A DNA stretch of 64,000 nucleotides from Bartonella sp. M0283. GTDB lineage: Bacteria > Pseudomonadota > Alphaproteobacteria > Rhizobiales > Rhizobiaceae. Below, piece by piece: positions 10,872 through 55,715 of this stretch. The notes beneath the pieces are model-generated. The model saw only the letters and a list, made by a program, of their open reading frames with translations. It had not been told where the DNA came from and searched no databases. The position numbers were made by a program, and so were the translations under genes. The stretch spans positions 82,350-146,349 of the forward strand of contig NZ_JACFSK010000002.1 in the NCBI RefSeq assembly GCF_016100455.1, in the 5' to 3' direction. Within the stretch, counting starts at the first letter, position 1; every line of letters starts with the position of its first letter.

Positions 10872-11516
10872 AAAACACCAAATTGAAGTTTATATGGTCT
10901 ATAGATATCGGCTATCCATTTTCGAAAATTGTGACGACCATTGTCTTTTGTCAACCAGACGTTTATTGTTCCCCTCGGATTATCAATTGATCGAAACCGG
11001 ATATAATCTATTCGCCCCGTCTTGCCCCGAGCCGATCTTGATCTTCTAACTTTATTTTCTGCCCGTCTTAAACCTTGGCCACATGAGCTCATATTACCTC
11101 ATGTAACAAAGACCTTGCAAAGCTTTTATTACGTCAATCTTTAGCCGATATTCCGATTTATAAACCGGACGAGGTTAACAAATTTGGCAGCAAAATTATA
11201 TTTTAAGCCATTTTTTGATCTTGCCATTTTTGCTCGCCGTTGGCTGAATGAAAAGCCCGTCAGACATAAAAATCATCAGTGCATAGCGAAAATTATGCAA
11301 GACTCCGTTTTCCAACAAAAGTCACCGAAAGTTCGAAGCCGTTTCTTTTCCGGAACACGTTTCTTCAGGCTCTTTTTCTGAAGCTGCCAGCGCGTCTTTT
11401 ACCTGAGTTTTTTTAAACCGCGAAAAGCCGTTCATCTCTCTTCTACTTTTACGTAGATGAAAGCGCTTATGCACAAGTGCACTTATTGTTGGAATAACCG
11501 AAAAGCTCAGAGAAAA
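10872..11516. other. intergenic region between puuA-like gene and tRNA-His
   Basis: About 645 bases without a gene I can support; the two short open frames have no recognisable features. Near the tRNA end are small dyads (around 11431-11462 and TGCAC-AA-GTGCA near 11470), which may help end the tRNA-His transcript, but no T-tract follows. The puuA-like promoter should lie near 10880-10960. Confidence 0.45.
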
Positions 11517-11593
11517 TGGTACGGTTGGTGGGAGTCGAACCTACGACCTCTGGTGCCACAAACCAGCGCTCTAACCAACTGAGCTACAACCGC
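11517..11593 (-). tRNA. tRNA-His (GTG)
   Basis: A full cloverleaf on the minus strand, 77 bases including an encoded CCA. The anticodon loop TTGTGGC lies in a CTGG...CCAG stem and the T-loop TTCGACT is intact. The base before the acceptor stem is T, so the universal G-1 is not encoded. The stem ends in a G1-U72 wobble with A73 as discriminator. This is the pattern known for alphaproteobacterial tRNA-His, which is recognised by a divergent histidyl-tRNA synthetase. Confidence 0.97.
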
Positions 11594-11842
11594 ATCGTCA
11601 GAATGAAACATTCTGACCGGTGACATACGGAAGATCGAGCAATTTTGCAAGTGCCTTAGCGCATTTAAACTCTATTTATTGGCATTTTCATTGGATTTTT
11701 ATCTTCGACAGACTGCAAAGCCGCTGAAATTTTTATTCCGCCCACGTAATGGAGCTTATAAAATTGACAATCAATAGGAGTTAAAACACGCCCAAAAATG
11801 CCACTCCTTATCTGACTAAAAAAACGCACAATCAACAGTTTT

Positions 11843-12560
11843 TGAAAACCGGATTTTCTTATTATCGCAATGTTATTCAAGAAAACCGCTTCGCACTTTT
11901 CAGGCACTGCCTGGACACTTTTGGGGAACCCGAGTTTTTAGTAAACTTGGGTTTATCCCAAAACCGTACTTTTTACTTGTCGCGGTGCACTTCCTGAAAA
12001 CCGCTTCGCACTTTTCAGGTACTGCTTGGACACTTTTGGGGAACCCGAGTTTTTAGTAAACTTGGGTTTATCCCAAAACCGTACTTTTTACTTGTCGCAG
12101 TGCACCTCCCGAAAACCGCTTCGCACTTTTCAGGCACTGCTTGGGTACTTTTGGAGAACCAAGTTTTTAGTAAACTTGGGTTTATCCCAAAACCGTACTT
12201 TTTACTTGTCGCAGTGCACTTTCTGAAAACCGCTTCGCACTTTTCAGGCACTGCTTGGACACTTTCGGGGAACCCGAGTTTTTAATAAACTTGGGTTTAT
12301 CCCAAAACCGTACTTTTTACTTGTCGCAGTGCACTTTCTGAGAACCGCTTCGCACTTTTCAGGCACTGCTTGGGTACTTTCGGGGAACCAAGTTTTTAGT
12401 AAACTTGGGTTTATCCCAAAACCGTACTTTTTACTTGTCGCAGTGCACTTCCTGAAAACCGCTTCGCACTTTTCAGGCACTGCTTGGACACTTTTGGAGA
12501 ACTAAGTTTTTAATAAACGCGGTTCTTATCCCAAAACCGTTTCACACTTTTGGGGAACCG
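11843..12560. repeat. tandem array of structured 114/115-bp repeats
   Basis: The marker CCGCTTCGCACTTTTCAGG recurs at 11886, 12001, 12116, 12230, 12345 and 12459 (the second copy differs only after the marker). A decayed partial unit lies upstream from about 11843 and the last unit is degenerate. Each unit contains two hairpins. One is CCTGAAAA...TTTTCAGG, extended in several units by GCAGTG...CACTGC. The other is AACCCGAGTTT-TTAGT-AAACTTGGGTT. Two unit subtypes occur: A (GAACCCGAG, 115 bp) and B (GAACCAAG, 114 bp), in the order A A B A B B'. The array fills the space between pyrD and tRNA-His and could form part of the pyrD 3' UTR or encode a structured RNA. No function is known to me. Confidence 0.93.
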
Positions 12561-12572
12561 CTTGGTGTGCCC

Positions 12573-13661
12573 CTAATCAGGGATTTTGCGGTTTGCCCAT
12601 TTATCCAAAGACAGGTCGCGATATTCCCCTATCTTTTTCGCACCATCATTTTTCATGGTTTCGAGCACATTTTTCAGAATGTGTCTCGCAAGCCCTGCAC
12701 CCTCATAAACCATCGCACTATAAAGTTCGACAAGATCGGCACCGGCTTTGATTTTTTCCAGCGCTGTTTTTGCGTCATAAACGCCACCAACCCCGATGAT
12801 GGGTTTTTGTTGCTGCACTCTCTTGCGCATTTTCGCAAGAATAATCGTCGAGCGTTCAAATAGCGGCTTGCCGGAAAGCCCGCCCGATTCGCCGCTGAAG
12901 CTTTTATTTTCAAGACCTGTTCTGGAAAGTGTCGTATTGGAAACAATAAGCCCGTCAACATCCGAGGCGAGAAGCTCGGCGGCAACATCATCAAGCCCTT
13001 CTTCGGTCAAATCAGGAGCTATCTTTAAAAAGACCGGAACATGAACACCCGTCTTTTGCTTTTCTTCCGCTCTTGCACCGCTCACCGACAAGAGCAATTC
13101 CTTCAAACTGTCACGGGCTTGCAAATTCCGTAAACCCGGTGTGTTGGGTGATGAAATATTGATGGTGAAAAAGCTTGCAACATCATAAAAACAATGAATG
13201 CCGCGCGAATAGTCGAGAATACGATCGTCCGAATCCTTGTTGGCACCGATATTGACCCCGACAATACCCTGCTTTTTACGCATAGCGAACCGTTTATGGG
13301 CAGCTTCATGCCCCTCATTGTTAAACCCCATGCGATTGATGACAGCCTCGTCTTCACGAAGACGAAAGAGACGGGGTTGAGGGTTGCCCGCCTGTGGACG
13401 CGGCGTGATTGTACCAACTTCGCTAAAGCCGAAGCCCAAGCGCAGTATTTGATCGGGAACTTCGGCATTTTTATCAAAACCGGCGGCCAAGCCTAAAAAA
13501 TTCGGAAATTCCAGTCCGGCTATGTCCACCCCCAAACGTGGGTCATGGATTGCCGGCCTCGAACCGAAGCCCGCTTTCAATGCAAGGATGGAAAGCTTGT
13601 GGGCTTTTTCGGGCGACAGGCAGAAAACCAACGGGCGTAATAAAGAACGATAAAGGTTCAT
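12573..13661 (-). CDS. pyrD: dihydroorotate dehydrogenase (quinone), class 2
   Basis: A 362-residue membrane-associated flavoenzyme that oxidises dihydroorotate to orotate with quinone as acceptor. The N-terminal [19 protein letters not shown] helix is the class 2 membrane-binding extension. Further marks are [12 protein letters not shown] near residue 60, the catalytic-region [12 protein letters not shown] near residue 167, and the FMN-phosphate loop [15 protein letters not shown] near residue 290. It overlaps the upstream DUF952 gene by ATGA and has a GAGGT ribosome-binding site. The stop codon is next to the 115-bp repeat array. Confidence 0.96.
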
Positions 13662-18272: not shown

Positions 18273-21200
18273 TCAAAGTTCATGACCATGATTTAACAGA
18301 ATTTCACGTTTTCCCACATGGTTGGCCGGACCGACAATGCCTTCAGCTTCCATGCGTTCAACCAGTGTCGCGGCCTTGTTATAGCCGATACTCAAACGGC
18401 GCTGGATATAGGATGTTGAACATTTCTTGTCGCGCATGACCACTTTGACCGCTTGCAAATAAAGTTCTTCCATATTTTCTCCGGCGCTGCCGGCAGCCAC
18501 AATATCGGCAATGGAATCGGCATCCTCAATGGTTTCCTCTTCGTCTTCGCCATCCGTCACTGTTGCAAGATAATCGGGTGTGCCTTGTGTCTTTAAATGT
18601 GCAACGACATGTTCGACTTCTTCATCCGAAACAAAGGGGCCGTGAACACGAACTATCCGGCCACCGCCCACCATGTGAAGCATATCGCCCTGACCCAGCA
18701 ATGTCTCTGCCCCCTGTTCGCCGAGAATCGTGCGGCTATCAATCTTGGAGGTAACCTGAAATGAAATGCGGGTTGGAAAATTCGCCTTGATCGTGCCGGT
18801 AATCACATCAACCGAAGGACGTTGTGTTGCCATGATAAGGTGAATTCCCGCAGCTCGCGCCATTTGTGCCAAACGCTGGATTGCACCTTCGATTTCTTTA
18901 CCTGCAACCATCATCAGGTCGGCCATTTCATCAACAATAATGACGATATAAGGAAGACGCGTAAGATCCATTGCCTCTTCATGATAAAGCATTTCGCCGG
19001 TTTCTTTGTCAAAACCGGATTGGACACGGCAGGTAATGGTTTCGCCCTTTTCGGCTGCCGCACTGACACGCTGGTTGAAGCCGTCAATATTGCGCACGCC
19101 GAGTTTTGCCATTTTACGATAACGGTCTTCCATTTCACGCACCGCCCATTTCAACGCCGTGACCGCCTTTTTCGGGTCGGTAACTACCGGCGTTAGAAGA
19201 TGCGGTATGCCGTCATAGATAGACAGTTCAAGCATCTTGGGATCAACCATGATGAGGCGGCATTGCTCCGGTTTCAAACGATAAAGCAGAGACAAAATCA
19301 TGGCGTTGATTGCCACCGATTTACCCGAACCCGTGGTACCGGCAACAAGCAGATGCGGCATTTTTGCAAGTTCTGCAATGACCGGTTCACCGCCGATATT
19401 TTTACCCAGAGCAAGCGGCAGCTTGTAATTGCTATCCTGAAATGTCTTCGACTGGATAATCTCGCGTAAATAAACTGTCTCGCGCACTTTATTCGGCAAT
19501 TCTATGCCGATAACATTGCGCCCCGGAATAACCGCAACACGTGCGGAAATGGCCGACATCGAACGGGCAATATCATCAGAAAGACCGATAACGCGCGATG
19601 ATTTGACACCGGCTGCCGGCTCGAATTCATACATGGTTACAACCGGCCCGGGACGGACATGAATGATTTCGCCTTTGATACCGAAATCTTCCAGCACGCT
19701 TTCAAGAAGTCCGGCGCTGCGTTCGAGTGTTTCCTGAGAAATCACCGCACCATCTTTATGTTCCGGCTCCTGCAAAAGGTCGATTGAAGGGAAAATATAA
19801 GAATCATCGCTTTGGGATTTCGGGCTTGGAATAAAAGCCGGATTGAGCGTGCGAAATGGCGCAGAAATTGTCGCTCTAGTCGCGGTTGGCGCAGTTGTTG
19901 CAATTGGCGCAGTTGTTGCCATTGGCGCAGTTGTTGCATTTTGCGTAGTTATCGCATTTTGCGCAACAGTTTGCGGTTTTTCCTTTTGTTCGGGAGCCTT
20001 TTCTTCTCCGCTCTGTTGAGGCGTTACAGCCTGTGAAAGCGATCGACCGGCAGGGGCATTGGCGGTTTTCACCGGTTCGATATCCTCGATAATTCCGGCA
20101 GATGGAGCAACCGGCTGTTGCTGCCCTGAAGAGGAAACAGAAATCGGATTTTGCGGTGCTGCTTGGGATAGAGTGACGCTAACAGGTTTACCCGTTTGTG
20201 CTTCACCGGCCGTATTCTGCGGATTCTTCTCCACACTCCCATTTTCAATCACCACTTGCCCCTGATTATTGAAGGTGGTGACAACAGAATTGTCAGGCAA
20301 TGGTGTTACCACTTGTAGAACAGGCGTTTCAGTCACTCGGGGAGTGATTGCCGGACTGACGCTTGATAGCGATACACTTTCTGTTACCGCTGTCTGATTG
20401 ATGATTGATTGCGGTGCCGCGTCAATGATAACGGCATTGGTGTTTCCCACGCCGGCTGTGGCCGATGTTTCCGGTGCTTGAACCGTCGCATCATTTACAA
20501 CCGGAGCTGAAGCCCCTGATTCAGTACTTGTCGATTGAACTATGTCCGGTGTCGCCGCTTGCTGCTCAATTTTTTCTTCAACCTTTTCCGTTGGCTTTTC
20601 CGGACCATTTCCATGCTTTTTCGGGAAACGGCATTCCAGCACCCGATAAAGGTCGGCAATGGATTTTTCCTCAACCTTCAAGCCGCTTTTTTCTTCAGTG
20701 GCATTATCCGCCATCAAACTCGAAGCAACTGGCGGCAATTGCGACGCACCCGACATTGGCGCCCCGTCAAGTGACATTTTTTGTACAGTCACAACGGGCT
20801 TTTTTTCAACGGCAAGAGGAGTTCTATCCATTGTAGACGGAGTTATGTTCGCACTTGTTTCCGGAGCGATAGTGTTTTCACTTTTAAGCGGCTTTTCAAA
20901 CGGCTGCGGCTCGCTTTCATTTTGCGGCGTAAGTTTTGCCAGATTTTCCAGAATATCCGGCCCGCATTCAAAAAATGCCGAATCGGAAAGATAAAACGGC
21001 TTGATTTCGGCAGGCTTATTAATTTCGGCTACCGGTTTTTCGGCCTCGACCACCGCTTCCTCCATAGAAGTTTCGTTCCGGATTTGAGCGGCACTATTGT
21101 TTTGAGGACGCATATAAACAGATTTGACACTATAATTCTGTTCGATATTTTTGCGTTGGACAGAAGCAATCACTTCGTCTTTCAAGGAGCGAACTTGAGT

Positions 21201-28147: not shown

Positions 28148-28792
28148 ATGGAAGAACTGATCTACATATTACCATTTGATCTGCACGGTGTCGAAATTGT
28201 TGTTACAATTCTTATAGTGGCACTGGTCTTGTTCTCTATTGTCATGCGGATTTTGAAAGTTCCCCAGAAACTTATGGTAATCGCGACCGGTGCTCTTGCA
28301 ATGAGTATCTATATGGCTTTCCAGACTGACGGTCCGGGGCCTATACAACCTCTGATAAACCTCGCCCAAAGGCAAAAGCAGCTCGATCAACAATTCGAAA
28401 ACAAACCATTGAAATTCGAAAATGTGACATTCACCGATGTCAAAGTGCGCGCCCATTCGCTTACACTCACTTTAAAAAACAACAACCCGTTGCCCGAAGG
28501 ATCCACGAAAGACGACCTTGAGGCCTATGCCAATTCTTATCTGAATAAAAAGCTCGTCGACTATTGTGAAATACTCAACGCCGAACAAGCGCTACCCTAT
28601 CGAAAGACCAACCAGCGATATTTTGATTTGACGATCACATCCTATTACGTCAAATTTATTGATGGGGATAAAAGCGCCAAGATGGAAATTCCGGTATCAA
28701 GCTGCACGGATAAACCGGCTACAAGCTCAAAACCGGATAAAGCTAAAAATTCCGAAACCGATAAATCCGAAAATTCCGAACAGGATAAATAA
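28148..28792 (+). CDS. membrane-anchored protein of unknown function
   Basis: A 214-residue protein with two hydrophobic segments near the N-terminus (about residues 14-33 and 42-57), followed by a soluble domain with a KTNQRYFDLTITSYYVKF patch near residue 160. It ends in a repetitive, charged tail of K, P, D, S, E and N (last ~25 residues). I do not recognise the family. It stands alone between the proline module and the duplicated aldehyde dehydrogenase segment. The frame is long and its codon use looks like that of its neighbours, so it is probably a real gene. Confidence 0.65.
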   Translation: MEELIYILPFDLHGVEIVVTILIVALVLFSIVMRILKVPQKLMVIATGALAMSIYMAFQTDGPGPIQPLINLAQRQKQLDQQFENKPLKFENVTFTDVKVRAHSLTLTLKNNNPLPEGSTKDDLEAYANSYLNKKLVDYCEILNAEQALPYRKTNQRYFDLTITSYYVKFIDGDKSAKMEIPVSSCTDKPATSSKPDKAKNSETDKSENSEQDK

Positions 28793-28854: not shown

Positions 28855-29255
28855 TTAAACGCGTCTCTTTATGAGACCGTTTGGCTTATAAAACTGTTCG
28901 GGTAAGGCTGTTTAGAGCTTATCGGATTTTTATTGCGGCAACATTGCTTTTACTGGTCTTGTCTTCGGCCACTTTCGAGAAACCGAACAATGATGGTTTT
29001 AACAAGAGTGATCGCATTTTAAACAACCAGCGCAATCGTGTTTTTAAAAATCTGGTGCATTCACTTTTTCCTTGGTCATTGTCCATCGCCTATTCGCACC
29101 CGTCTATTTTCCTGTCAGTTTTTCCCATCGGTTTTCCCCATAGGTTTTCCCCATAGGTTTTCCAATGACAAAAAGTTTTGGCAATCTCTACGTCTTATTG
29201 CTTTGGATAGAATGAAAAGAGGTATAAAATCACATAACGAGGACTTAAAGGGATA
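28855..29255 (+). repeat. first copy of a duplicated leader upstream of aldehyde dehydrogenase 1
   Basis: This stretch resembles 31190-31498 in order and wording. Both have TTTAAA...CGGCTTATAA at the start, a GTGTCTTGTC/GTCTTGTCTT block, CGCATTTTAAA, and CGCAATCGTGTTTTTAAAAA/GGCAATCGTATTTTTAAAAA. It is the 5' part of a tandem segmental duplication. The copies have diverged strongly, as untranslated sequence would. No gene is supported here. Confidence 0.7.
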
Positions 29256-41927: not shown

Positions 41928-41967
41928 TCGGCGTTCCATCCGATAAAGTGACGCCAATCACAAAAAG

Positions 41968-41993
41968 AAGACGTCTTTTGAAGAAGACGTCTT
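41968..41993 (+). terminator. hairpin downstream of glpT
   Basis: Two copies of the self-complementary AAGACGTCTT (41968-41977 and 41984-41993) can pair with each other around a 6-base loop, about 40 bases after the glpT stop. It is followed by CAAAGAAAAAAG rather than a T-tract, so it may act mainly on the opposite strand or as an mRNA-end structure. Confidence 0.5.
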
Positions 41994-42048
41994 TCAAAGA
42001 AAAAAGTGTTTTATAAAAGCACTCTTTAAACTTGTTGCTGACAGGGCC

Positions 42049-50224: not shown

Positions 50225-50310
50225 ATTAATCTACCCTTTCAGATAGCTCGCCTCTCGTTGGGAAGAGGTGGCCCGCTGACGTGATTATCCGAAAGGCACT
50301 CCCAGCACAA
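50225..50310 (-). promoter_or_regulatory. structured serC leader (serC RNA motif candidate)
   Basis: In the minus-strand transcript, CCUUUCGGAU (50296-50287) pairs with AUCUGAAAGG (50244-50235) over 10 base pairs with one G-U. Inside lies a CCUCU/AGAGG hairpin (50268-50264 with 50255-50251) with an 8-base loop. The 3' arm covers the GAAAGGG ribosome-binding site of serC. A conserved 'serC motif' RNA upstream of alphaproteobacterial serC genes has been described from comparative genomics. The position and shape fit that; the ligand or signal is not known. Confidence 0.75.
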
Positions 50311-54006: not shown

Positions 54007-55715
54007 TGAGCCACAAAATTTCGCGTGCCGCTTATGCGCAAATGTTCGGGCCGACAAAAGGTGACCATATCCGCCTTGCCGATACAGACCTTTTCGTAAC
54101 TGTCGAAGATGACAAGACAACTTATGGCGAGGAAGTCAAATTCGGCGGTGGTAAAGTTATCCGCGATGGTATGGGCCAAAGCCAATATTCACGTGAAAAA
54201 GGGGCTATGGATACAGTTATCACCAATGCCCTTATTGTCGATTATACCGGCATTTATAAAGCCGATATCGGTTTGAAAGACGGTCTTATCGAAAAAATCG
54301 GTAAAGCTGGCAATCCCGATATTCAACCAAATGTCGATATCATCATTGGCCCTGCAACCGAAATTATTGCAGCGGAGGGGAAAATTGTAACCGCTGGCGG
54401 AATTGATTCACACATTCATTTTATTTGCCCCCAGCAGGTCAACGAAGCACTCTATTCCGGCATTACAACCATGTTTGGCGGTGGCACGGGGCCCGCACAC
54501 GGAACGCTAGCGACCACCTGCACACCGGGCCCTTGGCATTTGGCGCGCATGATACAGGCGGTAGACAGCTTGCCGATGAATATCGGCCTTGCTGGCAAAG
54601 GCAATTCATCTTCTCCTGATGCTTTGATCGAAATGGTCAATGCCGGTGCTTCTTCGCTCAAACTTCATGAAGATTGGGGGTCGACTCCGGCGGCAATCGA
54701 CAATTGCTTGAGCGTTGCCGATGATTATGACGTGCAGGTTATGATTCACACCGATACATTGAATGAAGCGGGGTTTGTCGAAGATACAATCGCTGCATTC
54801 AAAGGCCGGACAATCCATGCCTTCCATACAGAAGGTGCCGGCGGTGGTCATGCTCCCGATATTATCCGTGTTTGCGGGTTTGAAAATGTATTGCCTGCCT
54901 CAACCAACCCCACGCGCCCCTATACGAAAAACACCATTGCCGAACATCTTGATATGCTCATGGTTTGCCATCACTTGTCGGCAAAAATACCGGAAGATGT
55001 TGCTTTTGCCGAAAGTCGTATACGTAAGGAAACAATTGCCGCAGAAGATATCCTGCATGATATTGGTGCCTTTTCTATTATCGCGTCGGATAGTCAGGCA
55101 ATGGGACGGGTTGGCGAAGTCATTATCCGCACATGGCAGACTGCCGATAAAATGAAAAAACAGCGTGGTTATTTGGGCAACGATAGCGGGTTCAACGATA
55201 ATGAACGCGTGAAACGCTATATTGCAAAATACACAATCAATCCGGCCATTGCACAAGGAATTGGTCATGTCACCGGTTCGATAGAAACCGGTAAACGTGC
55301 CGATATTGTCATCTGGTCGCCCGCCTTTTTCGGAGTAAAACCGGAGATGGTTTTGCTTGGCGGGATGATCGCAGCAGCACCAATGGGTGACCCCAATGCA
55401 TCGATTGCAACACCACAACCGGTTCACTTCCGGCCAATGTTCGGCGCTCTCGGAAAGGCTGTCAAACACACATCTCTTACCTTTACCAGCAAAGCCGCTA
55501 TTGATAACGGGCTCGCCGAAAAGCTTGGGCTTGAAAAGGAACTCGTTGCCGTTAAAAACACCCGCACTATTTCCAAAAAATCCATGAAACTCAATTCTGC
55601 AACGCCGCATATCGACGTTGACCCAGAAACTTATGAAGTGCGCGCAGATGGTGAATTATTAACCTGCGAACCGGCAAAGATACTTCCGATGGCACAACGC
55701 TATTTTCTTTATTGA
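54006..55715 (+). CDS. ureC: urease alpha (catalytic) subunit
   Basis: The start is the ATG at 54006 ([12 protein letters not shown]). The 569-residue subunit carries the nickel site: two histidines in HIHFICPQQ near residue 136, the carbamylated lysine in SLKLHEDWG near residue 219, histidines in MIHTDTLNE and [15 protein letters not shown], and the aspartate in [11 protein letters not shown] near residue 362. The flap cysteine and histidine are in MVCHHL near residue 322. All active-site residues are present, so the enzyme should be functional. Confidence 0.98.

Follow-up and report, generated by a model that had tools for sequence, protein, structure and literature searches.

Bartonella sp. 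M0283 carries, between the genes for tRNA-His and pyrD, a tandem array of palindromic units about 115 bp long, and the locus raises the question of whether these units are structured RNAs, a mobile repeat or part of the message of a neighbouring gene. The analysis covered a window of 64,000 nucleotides (contig NZ_JACFSK010000002.1, positions 82,350 to 146,349), and the repeat was then followed into other genomes of the genus and of the order. The window belongs to the honeybee-gut Bartonella group, its pyrD being 92–96% identical to the loci of this gene in B. apis, B. choladocola and B. apihabitans.

Layout and predicted fold of the array

The array was delimited with TRF at 11881–12540, with a period of 115, 5.8 copies, 92% matches and a score of 1115; a period of 229 scores slightly higher (1148). 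The original prediction of a tandem array with recognisable units and a decayed one is borne out by these 5.8 copies and by the decayed left end, a form that recurs in loci L161, L190 and L028. The features are listed in Table 1, where each unit begins at the start of an inner core. Unit lengths run 115, 115, 114, 115 and 114 bp along the array, and an intact core of a second type stands at its pyrD end. Core starts and unit alignment together return the same type order as was read before, A A B A B B′. Units differ from each other in 5–6 columns for A–A pairs, in 4 for the B–B pair and in 7–9 for A–B pairs. The pairwise history of the units is real, because the two types differ also at a second, linked site, which reads GGACAC in A and GGGTAC in B and is mixed in B′.

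Table 1. Positions of the array components and adjacent genes in the window
Feature	Position	Strand	Basis
tRNA-His, next gene beyond the array	11517..11593	-	tRNA prediction
Decayed left end (AAAACCGGATTTT..., as far as the first inner core)	11842..11881		sequence left of the core start 11882
Unit 1, type A, 115 bp, counted from the inner core	11882..11996		core starts, unit alignment
Link hairpin of unit 1, AACCCGAG-loop-CTTGGGTT, bearing the type A mark	11927..11953		sequence, alignment, RNAalifold
Unit 2, type A, 115 bp	11997..12111		core starts, unit alignment
Unit 3, type B, 114 bp	12112..12225		core starts, unit alignment
Unit 4, type A, 115 bp	12226..12340		core starts, unit alignment
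Unit 5, type B, 114 bp, core with one mismatch	12341..12454		core starts, unit alignment
Unit 6, type B′, merging into the terminal palindrome	12455..12518		core starts, unit alignment
Intact terminal palindrome, second-type core at 12533-12551	12519..12561	-	sequence, fold
pyrD (dihydroorotate dehydrogenase)	12573..13661	-	ORF; gene name from the original prediction, family not scanned

Each unit had been described as two hairpins. The count is right; the large hairpin is predicted to be nested, with one palindrome inside the loop of another. The inner palindrome CCTGAAAACCGCTTCGCACTTTTCAGG, flanked by CAGTGC/GCACTG, lies in the loop of the outer palindrome (CCCAAAACCG ... ACTTTTGGGG), and ViennaRNA gives this nested fold on both strands for the unit folded. 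A single unit served for both the RNA nested fold and the DNA fold, namely the one with the largest plus/minus energy gap among five. The second hairpin, one per unit, links neighbouring units of the array. On the pyrD-sense strand, the terminal palindrome is the first hairpin after the stop codon of pyrD, its core being 21 nt from the pyrD frame, and the fold of 12478–12567 has a z-score of −3.05 on the minus and −1.63 on the plus strand. At other loci of this genome and its relatives the repeat mostly takes a simple form, one core per 54–58 bp in short tandem rows. The fifth locus of this genome (L011, 2850–3300) contains a mixed decayed row of half-cores (AAAACCGTRCTTTTT, CACTTTTCGGGA), not clean copies.

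Read on the minus strand, the order is pyrD, array and tRNA-His, so the array follows the pyrD 3′ end; the two long frames to the left of the array are also on this strand. Elsewhere in the window, short tandem repeats were reported by TRF at 19886–19965, 28712–28790, 29118–29163 and 41964–42001, and the Rfam serC leader RF00517 matched at 50226–50278 (minus, 61.4 bits). A further match, to RF02514 (5′ ureB sRNA), covers 54161–54445 (minus, 109.5 bits). We take this family to be the Helicobacter antisense RNA of ureB, and the match may simply be the urease coding sequence of the opposite strand.

Relationship to RIME-type repeats of the Rhizobiales

The exact core AAAACCG-N5-CACTTTT was found in 197 of 400 relatives searched and in 127 of 201 genera, with up to 261 copies per genome, while the reversed pattern occurs 0–2 times per genome in the same set. 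The search of this genome and its relatives thus recovered further copies, both at other loci of the genome and in other members of the order. Within the genus, 11 of 71 genomes searched have the core, including one (G065) with a single copy, perhaps by chance, that was left out of the analyses after the core count. The named carriers in the genus are insect-gut species and 60 genomes are without the core, a distribution that suggests its loss in the remainder of the genus.

Rhizobium-specific intergenic mosaic elements (RIME, RIME1) have been familiar since 1995, when they were reportedly described by Osteras, Stanley and Finan in a paper with a two-component system in its title, presumably chvI-chvG. 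RIME1 proper consists of two palindromes side by side, about 110 bp in all. In S. meliloti Ak57 (CP090106.1), the core with a 4-base centre occurs with one mismatch in the chvI-chvG gap, so the same palindrome is present at that system, as judged in this genome and not against the published RIME sequence. In the same record the HPr kinase gene is followed, at a distance of 12 nt, by an exact core with a 4-base centre. The 4-base-centre palindrome is found there at 48 places (up to 2 mismatches), with a second palindrome alongside at 18 of 30 loci examined, and the 5-base-centre form occurs 23 times. The record (L284/L285) is titled as plasmid pSymB of S. meliloti Ak57; at 3.7 Mb and with chvI, chvG and ahcY it may be the chromosome.

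Because the core is widespread and one palindrome of the element stands in the S. meliloti chvI-chvG gap, the pyrD repeat is, by its sequence, best assigned to the RIME type in the broad sense, not to RIME1 itself or to a new RNA family. It is palindromic, intergenic between pyrD and tRNA-His, and present in many copies per genome in Rhizobiales; by a crude gene caller, cores lie inside a frame in 5 of 34 bee and 11 of 52 G053 clusters. It differs from RIME1 proper in that the second adjacent palindrome was not seen in the pyrD array: the S. meliloti chvI-chvG form has a 4-base centre and a second palindrome, whereas the pyrD units have a 5-base centre, with one core nested in another, and make up a long tandem array. 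BLAST of the G200 element against plasmids matched 417 records, mostly of Rhizobium (229) and Sinorhizobium (134); the whole pyrD array had no match among plasmids. The letters of the core motif were not found in openly available papers, and the open literature, with the 1995 RIME paper outside the search, yielded no account of the pyrD array or of stop-codon docking by RIMEs. The array is a known kind of repeat, with a composite unit, in a host group for which no earlier account was found.

The original prediction had also proposed a family of structured RNAs, which is left unproven by Rfam 15, with no match in the array or at four other loci. An RNA gene beside the sister loci was rejected as well, as those four loci lack Rfam matches and six of seven loci lack a tRNA, the seventh being the pyrD locus with its tRNA-His.

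Other repeat families resemble the array in part. REP/BIME elements share short palindromes near 3′ ends, and REP-type repeats are known from the vicinity of gene ends (PMC3733652); this genome, however, is without RAYT. No RAYT transposase (NF047646) was found at E 0.001 in this genome (G000) or in ten other carriers of the genus, and likewise no Y1_Tnp. Neither was found in six of the seven most copy-rich genomes (G200, G248, G206, G163, G053, G110), while the seventh, G277, has both. RAYT matches occur in 45 of 400 genomes, and the presence of RAYT or Y1 is not associated with the core (28/45, p 0.08, and 29/54, p 0.56, respectively). RAYT and Y1 were rejected as drivers of spread in these carriers on both grounds. 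CGTC REPs are described in PMC3733652 as having 8–9 bp stems that open with A-T pairs and loops of 4–5 bases, and as missing in Bartonellaceae; the stems here have C/G pairs at their start, vary in their arms and end in a triloop. Likened by description and not by sequence, Bru-RS1 and Bru-RS2 of Brucella are also palindromic and intergenic and belong to the same order (103–106 bp; PMC10800456, PMC2267715). Rickettsia palindromic elements (RPE), likewise compared by description only, are palindromes of similar size that can lie in frame in genes (PMC3733652). The 114-bp form could lie in frame here too, but no in-frame insertion was seen in a known gene.

A mobile non-coding element like a large REP/BIME had been a further suggestion. 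The repeat is indeed a RIME-type intergenic palindromic element with copies across the order, but mobility was not seen when loci were compared. When 36 loci of ten genomes were grouped by flanking genes, all five loci of this genome fell into shared groups, each common to 2 to 8 other genomes. Other species of the clade have these five loci too, and the ten genomes compared show no new insertion within the clade. Cores per shared locus range from 1 to 8, so copy number changes in place: the pyrD locus has 7 cores here, 5 in G076, 2 in G020 and 1 in G017, and the pyrD gap as read in L033, L037 and L038 has none. Units at pyrD differ by 0.042 within species and 0.123 between, and at three other loci they are slightly more alike within species (within/between 0.090/0.108, 0.047/0.060 and 0.085/0.093). 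Such likeness is what local unequal exchange or slippage would yield. The proposal that exchange has acted on pairs of units fits both the 229-bp period and the homogenisation at pyrD. In L031 (4067–4150), about 24 bases around the pyrD stop (ACAAAATCCCTGATTAGGGGCAC) are tandemly duplicated just before the element, as by slippage or insertion.

Strand preference and position behind stop codons

The plus-strand RNA had been put forward as the functional form. The array itself leaves the strand undecided. Across ten reference folds (five array units on each strand), the varying pairs that retain G-U number 4–7 on the plus and 2–6 on the minus strand; six folds lean to plus, two to minus and two are tied. 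By this measure the array alone leans slightly to plus. RNAalifold on the five units, the check proposed at the outset, found no compensatory change on either strand, with energies of −32.28 (plus) and −30.44 (minus). Folded one by one, the units have plus/minus energies of −38.6/−38.5, −30.5/−35.9, −36.6/−40.8, −35.1/−35.2 and −30.5/−32.8; in all five the minus fold is at least as stable as the plus fold within 0.1 kcal/mol.

The wider family was represented by 273 copies with at most 1 mismatch, 60 bases on each side and no N near the core, identical contexts being taken once; the set does not include cores with 4-base centres. Copies within 400 bases were joined into clusters. The G053 sample comprises 40 of 46 planned stretches and that of G200 20 of 24. 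The groups overlap, misc30 being drawn partly from G053 and G200 and several gtdb loci belonging to bee-set species. Because copies are related and bee clusters are mostly orthologous loci, the counts are not independent.

By cluster, the triloop is closed by GC in 94, CA in 31, TA in 24, CG in 12, GT in 2, AC in 2, TG in 1 and others in 4. The closing bases vary among G-C, C-G and T-A, and the intermediate C...A of 31 clusters is a U-G pair on the minus strand only. A closing wobble is thus found in 33 clusters on the minus and 3 on the plus strand (sign test 2e-7, only indicative given the relatedness of the copies). The corresponding figures for S. meliloti are only 5 and 2. A GNA triloop on the minus strand is present in 219 of 273 copies and 120 of 157 clusters, against 2 on the plus strand, and is weaker in G200 (24 of 50 copies). 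Covariation between the arms is seen in G053 (0.668 for the paired arms, against a mean of 0.469 and a maximum of 0.553 over 1000 shuffles); in G200 it was not seen in the register used (0.399 versus 0.377 shuffled). Wobbles in the outer arms are too few to use (GU 1, AC 5, other 9 unique).

Gene ends were defined by open frames of at least 80 codons, not by annotations. In 32 of the 52 clusters of G053, a long frame ends with its stop 11 or 12 nt from the core, which is 0–1 nt from the stem. When the limit is set at 20 nt, a stop is found on the minus-reading side in 36 of 52 clusters and on the other side in 4; the corresponding counts for G200 are 19 and 1 of 34. For the bee clade, mostly at orthologous loci, a stop within 100 nt is found in 25 of 34 clusters versus 3 of 34 on the other side, and within 20 nt in only 1 of 34. 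In S. meliloti, the 5-base form has a stop on the behind-gene side in 11 of 20 clusters and on the other in 4, and the 4-base form in 14 and 2 of 30; of these 14 stops, five fall within the arm, at offset 2, and may be spurious. A fixed orientation close behind stop codons is thus found in G053, G200 and S. meliloti.

Random stop triplets end such long frames in 47 of 215 cases in G053 and 22 of 121 in G200, whereas 32 of 33 stop triplets at offset 11–12 do so in G053. Since only 12 of 19 stop triplets at offset 12 end a long frame in G200, the end of the element may itself supply the stop there, by analogy with GTAG REP ends, which are reported to provide stop codons to neighbouring frames (Di Nocera et al. 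2013, PMC3733652). A cruder gene caller without distance limit gave opposite/same counts of 21/14 (bee), 9/2 (gtdb), 18/13 (misc30), 23/21 (G053) and 22/17 (G200); by this count the orientation bias is weak.

Family-wide closing pairs, triloops and the position behind genes together favour the minus, pyrD-sense strand, which is the strand of the message because the repeats sit behind genes. In minus orientation the message of the preceding gene, that of pyrD included, reads AAAAGUG...CGGUUUU.

Possible role of the repeat and of its copy number

On balance, we consider it probable that a RIME-type repeat has been amplified in tandem at this locus and that its hairpins act in cis in the 3′ UTR, on the pyrD-sense strand. 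The hairpin AAAAGUG-N-GNA-N-CGGUUUU, in the 3′ UTR of the preceding gene, would hinder degradation of the mRNA from the 3′ end or, close to the stop codon, would affect ribosomes or transcription. An effect on ribosomes would resemble that of E. coli REPs no more than 15 nt from a stop codon, which are reported to stall ribosomes (Liang et al. 2015, cited in PMC5082802). Copies would arise and become alike by unequal exchange or slippage, and the extra copies at pyrD may tune this gene or be neutral.

Transcription of the array on the plus strand, as tandem structured RNAs or as an antisense RNA facing the pyrD end, seems very unlikely to us. It would account for the G-U pair that type A retains on plus only, for the slight lean of the ten reference folds and for the terminator-like sites in the array (4 plus, 2 minus); the closing pairs and triloops of the family, however, point the other way, and the minus strand carries pyrD, the tRNA and both long frames to the left of the array. 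Rfam likewise gave no match, and no sigma-70-like site was found in 11400–12800 on either strand, although this is a weak test. A repeat protein gene can hardly be credited at all. The earlier statement that the frame breaks at each step holds for the 115-bp units, while the 114-bp units, equal to 38 codons, stay in frame, and a repetitive peptide could be imagined where the steps are 114 bp, as in B. choladocola, whose array has one frame open throughout on each strand. No single frame, however, spans the array in this window, where 115-bp steps disrupt it; the only step in B. apis is 115, and elsewhere the family steps 54–58 bp. The long open frames on both strands in B. choladocola (L029, 4086–4650) may be annotated as hypothetical proteins.

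The main alternative to action in the 3′ UTR is that the repeat has no function for the cell, a reading we regard as plausible, if less than probable. The hairpin would have served its own spread, perhaps as single-stranded DNA, the array would be a neutral tandem duplication, and the location at 3′ ends would reflect the loss of insertions elsewhere. The minus strand contains GCGAAGC, a very stable DNA mini-hairpin, and the DNA fold of one unit has z-scores of −4.03 (minus) and −2.52 (plus). The drift of copy number at shared loci and the pyrD gaps that lack the element fit such a neutral origin, as does the closeness of REP-type repeats to gene ends noted above from PMC3733652. The fixed core-to-stop distance of 11–12 nt in one orientation, on the other hand, is more than could be expected if insertions merely avoided genes, except where the stop is targeted or provided by the element itself. 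Nor was RAYT or Y1 found here, in the carriers of the genus or in six of the seven copy-rich genomes, their presence is unassociated with the core, and the clade has shown no new insertion.

A cis-acting role in the 3′ UTR, which we prefer for the array, can be extended to the whole family only tentatively, as a conjecture that we hold to be rather unlikely in its full form. RIME-type palindromes would then serve the Rhizobiales as an mRNA module with strand polarity. This GNA-triloop hairpin, whose AAAAGUG/CGGUUUU neck is fixed, would dock 0–1 nt behind stop codons and act on termination, ribosome release or 3′-end stability, with tandem copy number providing gene-specific tuning, as at pyrD. 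RIMEs were put aside as repeats in S. meliloti RNA screens (PMC2573895, PMC2245857), one of which terms their function unknown, and an S. meliloti RNA survey (PMC2873474) reports transcripts from such repeats. The interest of the pyrD array lies in the strand and stop-codon polarity of this wider family. Because the orientation is fixed and, in two lineages, the distance to the stop as well, the role of RIMEs in the message is directly testable, and the honeybee-gut Bartonella, whose genomes have about five loci of 1 to 8 cores each, would be a small system for such tests.
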